Of a stretch of 64,000 nucleotides of DNA, positions 13,691 through 22,106 are shown one piece after another. The stretch covers positions 434,001 through 498,000 of the forward strand of contig NZ_LT629695.1 of assembly GCF_900099705.1 (NCBI RefSeq), given 5' to 3'. Positions within the stretch are counted from its first letter, which is position 1; the number at the start of each line of letters is the position of its first letter. A program made the translations under genes and the position numbers. Source of the stretch: Agrococcus jejuensis. GTDB lineage: Bacteria > Actinomycetota > Actinomycetes > Actinomycetales > Microbacteriaceae. The notes beneath the pieces are model-generated. The model was not told the origin of the DNA, ran no database searches, and saw only the letters and a list, made by a program, of their open reading frames with translations.

Positions 13691-13808
13691 GTCCGGCGGT
13701 GTCCTACTCTCCCACAGGGTCCCCCCTGCAGTACCATCGGCGCTGTGAGGCTTAGCTTCCGGGTTCGGAATGTAACCGGGCGTTTCCCTCACGCTATGGC
13801 CGCCGAAA
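13691..13808 (-). rRNA. rrf: 5S ribosomal RNA
   Basis: Reverse complement begins GTTTCGGCGGCCATAGCG and ends with GTAGGACACCGCCGGAC, pairing the two ends as in the 5S terminal helix; the internal CCGAACCCGGAAGCTAAG is the standard 5S loop. About 118 bases; ends are estimated from the terminal helix. Confidence 0.95.
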
Positions 13809-13913
13809 CACTATGGATGTTTCAGTCTGAATCCTAGCGGATTCTTCGTTCTCGACCGTCCATCGAGAACCACAAAGTGGACGCAAGCATCACAACAGTC
13901 ATGTGATGAGTTA

Positions 13914-18968
<5,055 letters not shown>

Positions 18969-19103
18969 AGAAAATTTGCATACCACCGAAGTGGCAGCGA
19001 GTTTGAATCTGACAAGTGGATTGTCACTGACAATCTCAATGTGTCCAAAGGAATCTCAACGCATCCGAAGACACGACGAGGTAATTTGGCATTTGACATT
19101 GTG

Positions 19104-19571: not shown

Positions 19572-20861
19572 TCAGCCGGCGTCGACGCCGGCGAGCGTCT
19601 TCTTGCCTCGACGCAGCACGGCGAACCTGCCGTGCAGCAGGCGACCCTCGAGGGTCGCGGCCTCGTCGTCGATGCGCACGTTGTTGACCGAGACCCCGCC
19701 CTGGGCGATCGCGCGTCGCGCCTCCGAGAGCGAGTCGACGAGTCCCGACTCCTGCAGCAGCTGCAGCAGCGGTGCGTCGGGCGTCGCGGTCACGAGCTCG
19801 AGCGACGAGATGGCTGCCTGGAGCGTGCCGGCCTCGAGCGCGGCGAGGTCGCCCGACCCGAAGAGCGCGGCCGACGCATCCATCGCCTGCTGGGTCGCGG
19901 ACTCTCCGTGCACGTAGGCCGTGACCTCGGCGGCGAGCACCTTCTGCGCCTCACGGCGGAACGGCGCATCGGCGACCGCGGCCTCGAGCTCGTCGATGCG
20001 CTCCTTCGGCAGGAACGTGAACGACTTCAGCAGCTGCACGACGATCGCGTCGTCCTGGTTGAGCCAGAACTGGTACATCGCGTACGGCGTCGTCAGGTTC
20101 GCGTCGAGCCAGACGGCGTTGCCCTCGCTCTTGCCGAACTTGCGCCCGTCGGGCTCGGTGATGAGCGGCGTGCCGATCGCGTGCACGTGCGCGCCCTCGG
20201 CCTTGCGGATGAGCTCGGTGCCCGCCGTGAGGTTGCCCCACTGGTCGGAGCCGCCGGTCTGCAGCGTGCACCCGTACGTGCGGAAGAGCTCGAGGTAGTC
20301 CATGCCCTGCAGGACCTGGTAGCTGAACTCGGCGTACGAGATGCCCTCGTCGGAGTCCATGCGCGCCGCGACGGCGTCCTTCTTCAGCATCGTGCCGACG
20401 CGGAAGTGCTTGCCGACCTCGCGCAGGAAGTCGACGGTCGAGAGCGGCGCGGTCCAGTCGAGGTTGTTCACGAGGCGCATCGGGTTGTCGCCATCGGTCG
20501 CGAGGAAGCGCGACACCTGCCCCTGCAGGTACGAGACCCACTCGGCCACGGTCTCGCGCGCGTTCAGCTGCCGCTCGCTCGTGGGCTTGGGGTCGCCGAT
20601 GAGGCCGGTCGATCCGCCGACGAGGCCGAGCGGGTGGTGGCCCGCGAGCTGCAGGCGACGCATGACGACGAGCTGCGCCAGGTTGCCCAGGTGCAGGCTC
20701 GGCGCCGTCGGGTCGAAGCCGCAGTAGAACGTGATGGGCTCGCCGCCGAGCGCGGTGCGCAGCGCATCCGCGTCGGTCGAGACGTGCACCGAGCCGCGAT
20801 AGACGAGCTCGTCCCACACGGTCTCGAAGGACGTGTCGAGCTGGATGGGCGCGGTCTGCAC
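19572..20861 (-). CDS. tyrS: Tyrosyl-tRNA synthetase
   Basis: Charges tRNA-Tyr with tyrosine. The 429-residue class I synthetase has the HIGH-type motif HLGN at 57-60, the KMSKS-type KFGKS at 241-245, tyrosine-binding residues in YCGFD and SYQVLQGMDYL, and a C-terminal S4 domain (about 360-425). The GTG at 20861 is preferred because GGAG is 4 bases upstream and the protein then begins at the usual place; a TACGCT -10 box at 20869-20874 is 7 bases upstream. An open frame runs up to 20933, but it crosses the divergent operator and adds non-family residues. Confidence 0.95.
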   Translation of the reverse strand: MQTAPIQLDTSFETVWDELVYRGSVHVSTDADALRTALGGEPITFYCGFDPTAPSLHLGNLAQLVVMRRLQLAGHHPLGLVGGSTGLIGDPKPTSERQLNARETVAEWVSYLQGQVSRFLATDGDNPMRLVNNLDWTAPLSTVDFLREVGKHFRVGTMLKKDAVAARMDSDEGISYAEFSYQVLQGMDYLELFRTYGCTLQTGGSDQWGNLTAGTELIRKAEGAHVHAIGTPLITEPDGRKFGKSEGNAVWLDANLTTPYAMYQFWLNQDDAIVVQLLKSFTFLPKERIDELEAAVADAPFRREAQKVLAAEVTAYVHGESATQQAMDASAALFGSGDLAALEAGTLQAAISSLELVTATPDAPLLQLLQESGLVDSLSEARRAIAQGGVSVNNVRIDDEAATLEGRLLHGRFAVLRRGKKTLAGVDAG

Positions 20862-20904: not shown

Positions 20905-20966
20905 ATCAAGTCGTGAGCCTTGATTGCTGGCAATCAAGCCTGTAGCCTTGTGCATCCGGCCACAAG
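20905..20966. promoter_or_regulatory. Operator array: five half-sites at exact 14-bp steps
   Basis: Half-sites ATCAAG (20905), CTTGAT (20919), ATCAAG (20933), CTTGTG (20947) and CACAAG (20961) start exactly 14 bases apart and alternate in orientation. The middle pair forms the perfect palindrome CTTGATTGC-TG-GCAATCAAG at 20919-20938. The array lies in the 125-base gap between tyrS and the SatD-like gene and covers the latter's -35, spacer, -10 and start region. The SatD-like protein, which has a C-terminal HTH, is the natural candidate binder (inference). Confidence 0.75.
20920..20948 (+). promoter_or_regulatory. Promoter of the SatD-like gene
   Basis: TTGATT at 20920-20925, a 17-base spacer and TAGCCT at 20943-20948. 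The first half-site of the central palindrome overlaps the -35 hexamer and the CTTGTG half-site overlaps the -10, so binding should block RNA polymerase. Confidence 0.65.
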
Positions 20967-20986
20967 CCTGAGGACTGGAGGACCCG

Positions 20987-21598
20987 ATGCATCGGATCGT
21001 GCTCACGATCGACCGCCGCGGCTCGCGCCGCCACGCCGACGACGTCGAGCAGATGCGCGTCGCGCTCGCCGACCGGTGGTCGCGTGCGCTGCGCTCCCCC
21101 GTCGCCCGCTTCGCCGGCGACGAGCTGCAGCTCGTGACCGACGACGCCGTCGCCGCCGTGCGCATCGCCCTCGACCTCACCCGCACGCGCGACTGGAGCG
21201 TCGGCATCGGCGTCGGCGCCGCGACGCTCGCCGACGATCCCGCCGCCTCGACAGGGCCGGCGTTCTTCGCCGCGCGCCGCGCGGTCGACCGTGCGAAGCC
21301 CTCGCCCACGCGCCTCGCCGTCGCCGTCGACGACGCCGACCTCGAGCCTGCCGCCGAGGACGTCGAGGCCGTGCTCTGGCTGCTCGTCGCCCTGCGCGAC
21401 CGCCGCTCGAAGGAGGGCTGGGAGGTCGTCGACCTGCTCGAGCGCGTCGCGACGCAGCGCGAGGTCGCCGACGAGCTCGGCATCTCGGCGAGCGCCGTCT
21501 CGGCCCGCGCCGTCGCCGCCGGCATCCGCGTCGAGTCGGTGGGCGTCGCTACCGTCGAGGGCATGCTCATGAGGCTCGCGGGAGGCGCGGATGCGTGA
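20987..21598 (+). CDS. SatD-family protein with C-terminal helix-turn-helix
   Basis: A 203-residue protein. The N-terminal part matches the SatD pattern: LTIDRRGSR near 6-14 (family D...GSR), FAGDELQ near 43-49 (family GDE-Q), VGIGVGA near 70-76 and TGPAFFAARRAV near 89-100. Residues about 155-180 (ATQREVADELGISASAVSAR) form a typical helix-turn-helix. SatD is known from the Streptococcus mutans sat operon, of unclear biochemical role. The ATG has GGAGGA 5 bases upstream. It overlaps the next gene by 8 bases and is preceded by an ordered operator array, suggesting it represses its own two-gene operon. Confidence 0.75.
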   Translation: MHRIVLTIDRRGSRRHADDVEQMRVALADRWSRALRSPVARFAGDELQLVTDDAVAAVRIALDLTRTRDWSVGIGVGAATLADDPAASTGPAFFAARRAVDRAKPSPTRLAVAVDDADLEPAAEDVEAVLWLLVALRDRRSKEGWEVVDLLERVATQREVADELGISASAVSARAVAAGIRVESVGVATVEGMLMRLAGGADA

Positions 21599-22106
21599 CA
21601 CGACCCGGATCGCGCTGCACGCGACCGCCGCGATCGGCGGGCTCGTGGTCGTCGGCGGCCTCGTCGCCGCCGGCATCGCCTGGCGGCTCGAGCCCGCGTG
21701 GCTGCAGGTGCTCGCCGTCGCTGCGATCGCCGCGGCGGGCACGGCGCACGGCGCGAGCGTCGTCACGATCGTCTTCCGCGTCGCCGACCCGCCGGCGTCG
21801 CGCCTCGACGCGCCGGGCTCCGAGCCCAGGCAGCAGCCCGACCTCGCTCCCCCGAAGAACTCGATGCGCGGCGGCTGGATGATCGGCGTGCTCGAGCGCG
21901 CATCCACGATCCTCGCCATCGCGGTCGCCGAGCCCACGATCATCGCCGCGATCGTCGCGATCAAGGCCGTCGGCCGCTTCGGCGAGCTCGCCGGCGACGG
22001 TCAGGGCGCCGCGGCCCGCATGCGCGAGCGATTCCTCGTCGGCTCGCTCGCGAGCCTCACGATCGCCGGGCTGTGGGGCGTCGCCGCCTGGCTGCTCGTG
22101 CGCTGA
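21591..22106 (+). CDS. Membrane protein paired with the SatD-like regulator
   Basis: A 171-residue protein with four hydrophobic segments (about 8-32, 37-62, 104-125, 150-170) and a Pro-rich loop at 68-92. Its C-terminal half, with WMIGVLER, then IAAIVAIKAVGRFGELA and FLVGSLASL-GLWG, resembles the C-terminal membrane domain of DUF3307 proteins that neighbour satD in Firmicutes and Bacteroidetes. The DUF3307 N-terminal part is replaced by an unrelated hydrophobic region. The start overlaps the satD-like gene by 8 bases, so the two are co-translated. Function unknown. Confidence 0.7.
   Translation: MRDTTRIALHATAAIGGLVVVGGLVAAGIAWRLEPAWLQVLAVAAIAAAGTAHGASVVTIVFRVADPPASRLDAPGSEPRQQPDLAPPKNSMRGGWMIGVLERASTILAIAVAEPTIIAAIVAIKAVGRFGELAGDGQGAAARMRERFLVGSLASLTIAGLWGVAAWLLVR

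Follow-up and report, generated by a model that had tools for sequence, protein, structure and literature searches.

Evenly phased, alternating half-sites as a likely autoregulatory operator of a SatD-like helix-turn-helix gene in Agrococcus jejuensis

Across the promoter of a gene for a SatD-like helix-turn-helix (HTH) protein in Agrococcus jejuensis, five six-base half-sites follow one another at exact 14-bp steps and in alternating orientation. They lie within the window, the stretch of 64,000 nucleotides of contig NZ_LT629695.1 that was analysed here. An earlier note on this DNA had reported the places, spacing and orientations of the half-sites, all of which are confirmed from the window sequence (Table 1). 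On the evidence of sequence comparison, it is highly likely that the array is an autoregulatory operator, controlled through the SatD-like protein's own HTH.

Table 1. Half-sites, promoter elements and neighbouring genes, in positions of the window
Feature	Position	Strand	Remarks
Half-site 1	20905..20910	-	ATCAAG on +; CTTGAT read on -
Half-site 2	20919..20924	+	CTTGAT; 14 bp from the start of half-site 1; also source of the -35-like TTGATT
Half-site 3	20933..20938	-	ATCAAG on +; 14 bp beyond half-site 2
Half-site 4	20947..20952	+	CTTGTG; 14 bp beyond half-site 3
Half-site 5	20961..20966	-	CACAAG on +; 14 bp beyond half-site 4, its pair partner
-35-like TTGATT	20920-20925	+	within the register of half-site 2
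-10-like TAGCCT	20943..20948	+	17 bp after TTGATT; overlaps half-site 4
SatD-like HTH gene	20987..21598	+	203 aa; predicted class III cyclase-like domain (about 1-134) and C-terminal HTH
Membrane protein gene	21591..22106	+	171 aa; overlaps satD by 8 nt; four hydrophobic segments
tyrS	19572..20861	-	divergent; GTG start taken at 20861; 125-bp gap to satD
rRNA operon (16S, 23S, 5S)	13691-18969	-	complete; just beyond tyrS

Half-sites 2 and 3 together make up a perfect palindrome of 20 bp, CTTGATTGC-N2-GCAATCAAG, at 20919-20938, with two free central bases. This palindrome occurs at a single place in the genome when up to three mismatches are allowed. A candidate sixth half-site, CTGGAG at 20975, is in register but poor, and overlaps the ribosome-binding stretch; it was counted in the chain score of the window, and the claim of an array does not rest on it. 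The nearest named relative found is an A. jejuensis record (L002) with a protein 93% identical to that of the window. There, the last pair of half-sites is changed on both arms (CTTGCG/CGCAAG versus CTTGTG/CACAAG in the window) and the steps are the same. The array was said in the earlier note to cover a good promoter. The elements TTGATT-N17-TAGCCT are indeed present, but the adjective was too generous: TAGCCT has three of the six bases of TATAAT, and a consensus promoter scan of this region reported no promoter at these elements.

Could an array of this kind arise by chance? Arrays were scored with a chain model in which half-sites alternate at distances of 12-16 bp, and were tested against 40 dinucleotide shuffles. 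The window array scores 49.9, against a maximum of 9.8 among the shuffles (it was scored as L008, an identical sequence). A loose three-half-site pattern with up to two mismatches has 35 matches in the 3.40-Mb genome, fewer than the 161 of its reversed control, and such loose matches thus carry no meaning. Without mismatches, there are three matches in the genome, all within the window array. One of the two one-mismatch matches outside the array (673873-673904, L113) did not look array-like on inspection. No second array was found in this genome with the palindrome and the three-half-site patterns.

An exact three-half-site pattern was sought in 199 genomes of the family, where it gave 28 overlapping matches, spread over 12 places in as many genomes, all directly upstream of satD; its control had no match in the same 199 genomes. 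The array thus belongs to the SatD-like HTH gene, as had been supposed, in that the exact pattern is found in family genomes only just upstream of satD. The exact pattern is limited to 12 of the 199 genomes, although 102 of them have the protein.

Those 102 genomes are the ones with a match at E <= 0.001 in a protein search of the family. The other 97 gave no match to the satD-like gene, three of them from the same genus (G049, G119, and G174), so the gene is patchy in its distribution. The family set consists of 102 usable upstream regions, including the named A. jejuensis, Ruania, Demequina, Gordonia, and a Corynebacterium. Left out were L006 (a second copy of L005), L102 (an unusable start), L106-L108 (missed when the search was repeated), and one weak match in G158. 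From later sets, L002 was omitted as a near-duplicate, as were six class-level loci already present in the family set.

By the chain model, the array beats all 40 shuffles in 87 of the 102 family regions, and a significant array is absent in 15. In a later, control-matched scoring, 86 of 101 regions beat all shuffles and 80 of 101 score at least 20. The corresponding figures are 2/99 and 0/99 for a control stretch from -500 to -297, and 0/101 on both counts for a control inside the gene. A model trained on the family was then applied to a class-level hold-out set, in which 41 of 68 regions beat all shuffles and 28 score at least 20; in the controls, 2/67 (upstream stretch) and 0/68 (in the gene) are significant and none is above 20. 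Among the 27 of 68 class regions without a significant array, some have badly scored CTTGC- or CTTTC-like letters; others may have none. When the class set is taken together with distant SatD genes, 50 of 84 regions are significant. Conservation of the half-sites and their phase upstream of orthologues, the check named in the earlier note, is therefore borne out (87/102 in the family set against 2/99 and 0/101 in the controls).

The periodicity can also be seen without any motif. In the family upstream regions, direct-repeat lags of 28 and 29 bp have 499 and 394 matches, where shuffles give 45 and 41 (z of 38.2 and 39.5, respectively), and lags of 56 and 58 come next. Inverted-repeat lags peak at about 14 and about 42. 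Inverted repeats are weaker evidence here than direct ones, as 123 matches at lag 14 fall inside the gene, compared with 198 upstream.

How strictly is the spacing kept? From ATCAAG to CTTGAT the step is 14 bp in 248 of 281 cases; from CTTGAT to ATCAAG it is 14 bp in 119 of 208 and 15 bp in 70 of 208. These counts come from a chain model that has no preference among 12-16 bp and allows only these steps, so that they are bounded by design. Exact hexamers, taken without the chain model, give 14 bp in 52 of 64 cases from the ATCAAG type to the CTTGAT type; for the other step, they give 14 bp in 30 of 70 and 15 bp in 22 of 70. Among arrays that contain a given step two or more times, its length is uniform in 82 of 105 for ATCAAG to CTTGAT and in 56 of 82 for CTTGAT to ATCAAG. 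The best chains have four to six half-sites in 80 of 102 regions, and the longest has ten in register (L047). Because both steps are constrained, neighbouring proteins probably touch on both sides. The choice between 14 and 15 bp was also compared with the protein columns, of which 147, 175, 171, and 11 lead, but the step may merely track clades and this comparison was set aside.

The promoter follows the same register. In scored arrays, a TAnnnT -10 element coincides in phase with one or other of the two final forward half-sites (37/108 and 33/108), versus 0/81 forward half-sites further upstream and 5/293 reverse half-sites; the total for forward half-sites is 70/297. In the window, the -35-like TTGATT is supplied by the forward half-site 28 bp before the one that the -10-like element overlaps, and the promoter is thus built into the register of the array. 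Often, no more than about 25 nt separate the beginning of the final scored half-site from the start codon.

Which protein reads the array? The half-site letters vary among species and tend to agree within one array, for example as CTTGAT, GTTGAT, CCTGAT, CTTAAT, or CTAAAT. For each half-site position, the best-following column was sought among the 203 columns of the protein. Loci with a chain score below 20 were excluded, which kept 79 of 100 loci and, later, 107 of 168. The recognition helix is at residues 168-177 of the predicted structure. The best column falls within residues 167-176 for five of seven positions with 79 loci and for six of seven with 107; at half-site position 3, column 41 ranks top (107 loci). 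When the loci are thinned, top columns lie in the recognition helix for 3/5 positions at less than 70% identity, 5/5 at less than 60% (61 loci), and 3/4 at less than 55%. Kinship alone should not pick out the recognition helix.

Individual residues and bases go together in the same way. Lysine or arginine at 173 is paired with G at half-site position 1 (G1) in 12 of 18 loci, and in none of the other 89. The counts for Asp-173 and C at position 2 (C2) are 6 of 9 and 4 of 98, and those for Gln-169 and G at position 4 (G4) are 80 of 82 and 10 of 25. After thinning to less than 60% identity, the link of Lys/Arg-173 with G1 has p 2.8e-7 and that of Gln-169 with G4 p 5.8e-6, while the link of Asp-173 with C2 weakens (p 0.03 at 60%, and 0.20 at 55%). 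In a tree-based independent-pairs test, which is underpowered with few supported branches, four pairs differ at 173 between basic and non-basic, and base 1 changes the same way in 2.6 and the opposite way in 0.0. In the same underpowered test, among six pairs that differ in the base at C2, Asp changes the same way in only 1.0. Since the half-site letters track the recognition helix of the adjacent protein, the reader is very probably the SatD-like protein, through its HTH. This is the reader that the earlier note had implied, and residues 169 and 173 of the recognition helix are among those with which the letters covary.

The SatD-like protein represents a divergent actinobacterial branch. The window protein scores 26.4 bits against Pfam PF16264 (SatD), below the cut-off of 29, and it is therefore called SatD-like rather than a family member. 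Of 60 alignment members, 48 match the SatD profile at E <= 1, the best at 3.4e-10. The branch has a core in common with canonical SatD, namely D9, S13, G44-D45-E46, Q48, G73, G75, and G90, each of which is present in no fewer than 161 of the 168 branch sequences and 34 of the 35 classed as canonical. Of these 35, one may be a duplicate place and another a member of the branch (L214 and L228). Several weak matches to HTH profiles fall near residues 145-175 of the window protein.

The N-terminal part is predicted to have a class III cyclase fold. The window protein is about 18% identical to class III nucleotidyl cyclases such as Rv1264 and Ma1120, and is cyclase-like by predicted fold. No cyclase family is among the nine Pfam matches of the window protein, or among the 25 families, out of 61, listed for 60 relatives. 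D9 and D45, which are conserved across the branch and canonical SatD sequences, may correspond to the metal-binding aspartates of class III cyclases, to judge from the aligned range and from what is generally known of these enzymes. The catalytic asparagine presumably has no counterpart in the SatD-like protein, where, by eye, an aromatic residue is found. With regard to a role in defence, PADLOC gave no match for the SatD-like protein or the membrane protein.

The membrane protein encoded downstream is a regular partner. An ORF with at least two hydrophobic segments starts beside or within the end of satD at 92 of the 94 loci of the family and at 55 of the 66 of the class, the ORF taken being the most hydrophobic of the candidate starts. 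In 48 of 70 complete membrane-protein ORFs, the overlap with satD is 4 nt. In an alignment of 50 partners, the invariant residues mostly fall in the C-terminal half. The profile of these partners matches ORFs at 18 of 41 distant-SatD loci, some of which have just 390-550 nt of downstream sequence. DUF3307 (PF11750) was found in two of five scanned partners at distant-SatD loci, and was not found in the membrane partner in the window or in any of 50 partners of its branch; this membrane protein resembles the partners of other satD genes, some of them with DUF3307, in the C-terminal part only. On two haloarchaeal plasmids, genes annotated as 'SatD family protein' and 'DUF3307 domain-containing protein' overlap by 4 nt. 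At two distant loci (L204 and L205), the membrane-protein gene adjoins the SatD gene in the opposite orientation. Two others (L217 and L227) have long SatD variants of 278 and 289 aa, with a C-terminal part that looks unlike the usual HTH, beside a DUF3307 protein.

On the other side of the array, tyrS is divergent in 84 of 104 family-based loci. Within the sequence taken, it is upstream of satD in none of 102 class or phylum loci, 64 of which are of this branch; at one locus (L213), it stands on the opposite flank of satD. Some relatives have satD close to the end of a contig, perhaps owing to the adjoining rRNA operon.

The spacing reaches well beyond this branch. In 35 regions upstream of distant SatD genes, the 28-bp direct lag stands at 193 against 29.5 (z 27.5). 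With one over-sampled group removed and the regions otherwise unthinned, 26 regions are left and the 28-bp lag has z 9.6. These distant arrays mostly have CTTCA-like letters, with pentamer steps of 12 (32/34) and 16 (18/32), whereas the CTTGA/TCAAG type of the window gives pentamer steps of 13 and 15.

In two near-identical haloarchaeal plasmid regions, there are eight GTTCG half-sites at steps of 15, 14, 15, then 32, then 15, 14, and 15. The haloarchaeal arrays are thus two blocks of four, set 32 bp apart rather than 14 or 15 (L253 1394-1426 and L255 1094-1126). A lag of 28 or 29 exceeds all 200 shuffles in both haloarchaeal regions and in Natronosalvus, Sphingomonas, and Agrobacterium. The Sphingomonas (L257, 850-1019) and Agrobacterium (L258, 843-1013) plasmids have GGGTTA/TAACCC-like inverted repeats with a 28-bp lag upstream of SatD; neither has an exact 5-mer chain. 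Tsukamurella (L254) has an exact 5-mer chain, with 0 of 100 shuffles as good, and a weak lag, with 26 of 200 as good. No 28-bp signal was found in Fusobacterium vincentii (L259). A search of phages with the haloarchaeal SatD gave no match.

We propose that the SatD-like protein would control its own two-gene operon, consisting of satD and the membrane protein gene, through the array. The C-terminal HTH of one monomer would read one half-site, with the consensus GGCTTGAT, and monomers would sit every 14 bp in alternating orientation, contacting neighbours on both sides. One contact, across ATCAAG-N8-CTTGAT, would be rigid and nearly always span 14 bp; the other, across CTTGAT-N8/9-ATCAAG, would be looser and span 14 or 15 bp. 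A cyclase-type dimer contact and an HTH-side contact would be the natural candidates for the two, the cyclase-like N-terminal domain probably forming one of them. The resulting row, with its repeat of 28/29 bp, would cover the -35, the -10, and the leader, and transcription would presumably be repressed, not activated, by the SatD-like protein. The cyclase-like domain may also sense a nucleotide, which would free the operon when the membrane partner is needed. Assembly of the monomers on the array would presumably be co-operative. The earlier note had suggested a co-operative, polymer-like complex; this fits the constraint on both steps and the arrays of up to ten half-sites, and geometry is the basis on which it can be proposed.

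Might ordinary dimers suffice, bound independently to two or three adjoining palindromes without contact between neighbours? The strongest element in the window is a perfect 20-bp palindrome (20919-20938), and scored arrays of four half-sites are common (18/102), as such dimers would have it. Independent dimers would, however, let one of the steps drift, yet of 281 steps of the one kind 248 are 14 bp, and of 208 of the other kind 189 are 14 or 15 bp, and exact hexamers give the same picture. Together with arrays of up to ten half-sites (L047) and the haloarchaeal series of 15, 14, 15, which is kept with other letters, this makes independent dimers unlikely. It is similarly improbable that the SatD-like protein is an activator, or mainly a structural protein that covers DNA, rather than a repressor. 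Some half-sites lie far ahead of the promoter, whose poor -10 and -35 recall those of activated promoters; but the array overlaps both elements and its last half-site often lies no more than about 25 nt from the start codon, where bound protein is expected to block RNA polymerase.

Two further readings concern what the array serves and what binds it. A shared control region for tyrS and satD would suit the window, in which tyrS stands opposite across the 125-bp gap, and 84 of 104 family-based loci in which it does the same. We give this little credence, because tyrS is upstream in 0/102 class and phylum loci, many of which keep the array, and because a -10-like element occurs at forward half-sites (70/297) and at almost no reverse ones (5/293). 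The earlier suggestion that the array may affect tyrS is thus not supported, many arrays persisting at loci with no tyrS upstream. A regulator encoded elsewhere might bind the array, the HTH of the SatD-like protein being coincidental: the reader has been assigned by comparing sequences, and overlap with a promoter fits any operator. It is very hard to reconcile such a regulator with letters that track the recognition helix of the adjacent protein, or with an exact pattern that occurs only beside satD, and we regard it as most improbable. Autoregulation by the SatD-like protein through its own array is the reading that we prefer.

A wider reading, which we think possible and incline to doubt, is that the SatD and SatD-like proteins found in bacteria and archaea form polymers on DNA, regulate themselves, and sense a nucleotide. 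The cyclase-like domain would assemble monomers on the 28/29-bp array, and nucleotide binding or turnover at the cyclase-type dimer interface would open or close the array, thereby setting the level of the DUF3307-type membrane protein. As the geometry of the array is kept and its letters are free to change, array and recognition helix would, on this nucleotide-sensing reading, co-evolve in each lineage.

How does the system compare with those already described? To our knowledge, no 28-bp array has been found for PucR-type regulators. Such regulators, which pair a GGDEF-like domain with an HTH (for example MabR, Rv2242; PMC11617747), likewise join a fold of the GGDEF/cyclase superfamily to a C-terminal effector domain. 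A Foldseek search with the model of the window protein gave weak matches to 3onq and 9f80 (TM 0.27-0.32, rmsd 14.4-15.5 Å). BldC, an oligomeric MerR-like protein, is reported to form co-operative multimers along repeated sites in Streptomyces (PMC5859096). It covers repeated sites, as is proposed here; however, those are direct repeats bound head-to-tail, whereas the half-sites in the window alternate, and the domains differ. The SatD-like protein is not a BldC-type member. ParB of pSM19035 is reported to act through an uninterrupted array of short repeats, at least four of which are needed for a stable ParA-ParB complex (PMC9499535). Its ribbon-helix-helix fold, contiguous 7-bp repeats (heptads), and role in partition are all unlike the system in the window. 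Oligomeric regulators on repeat arrays are thus already known, while the alternating 14-bp geometry and its pairing of a cyclase-like domain with an HTH were not found described in the searches made of the open-licence PMC literature. None of the papers listed by those searches gives SatD a function; the one that came up for the family by name concerns the annotation of Fusobacterium (PMC10326533).

A sat operon is known from Streptococcus mutans, and SatD (PF16264) is annotated in bacteria and archaea. The evidence assembled here would give this branch a job, namely to regulate itself through a defined operator, and suggests that a cyclase-like domain is employed in a repressor. It also offers a first protein-DNA recognition code, in which residues 169, 170, 171, and 173 are set against half-site positions 0 to 4 and which is directly testable. 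Unusually, it is the geometry and not the sequence that is conserved, in an operator repeat of 28/29 bp that extends from actinobacteria to haloarchaea with letters that change freely. The SatD arrays may therefore serve as a natural set for the study of joint change in a repressor and its operator.
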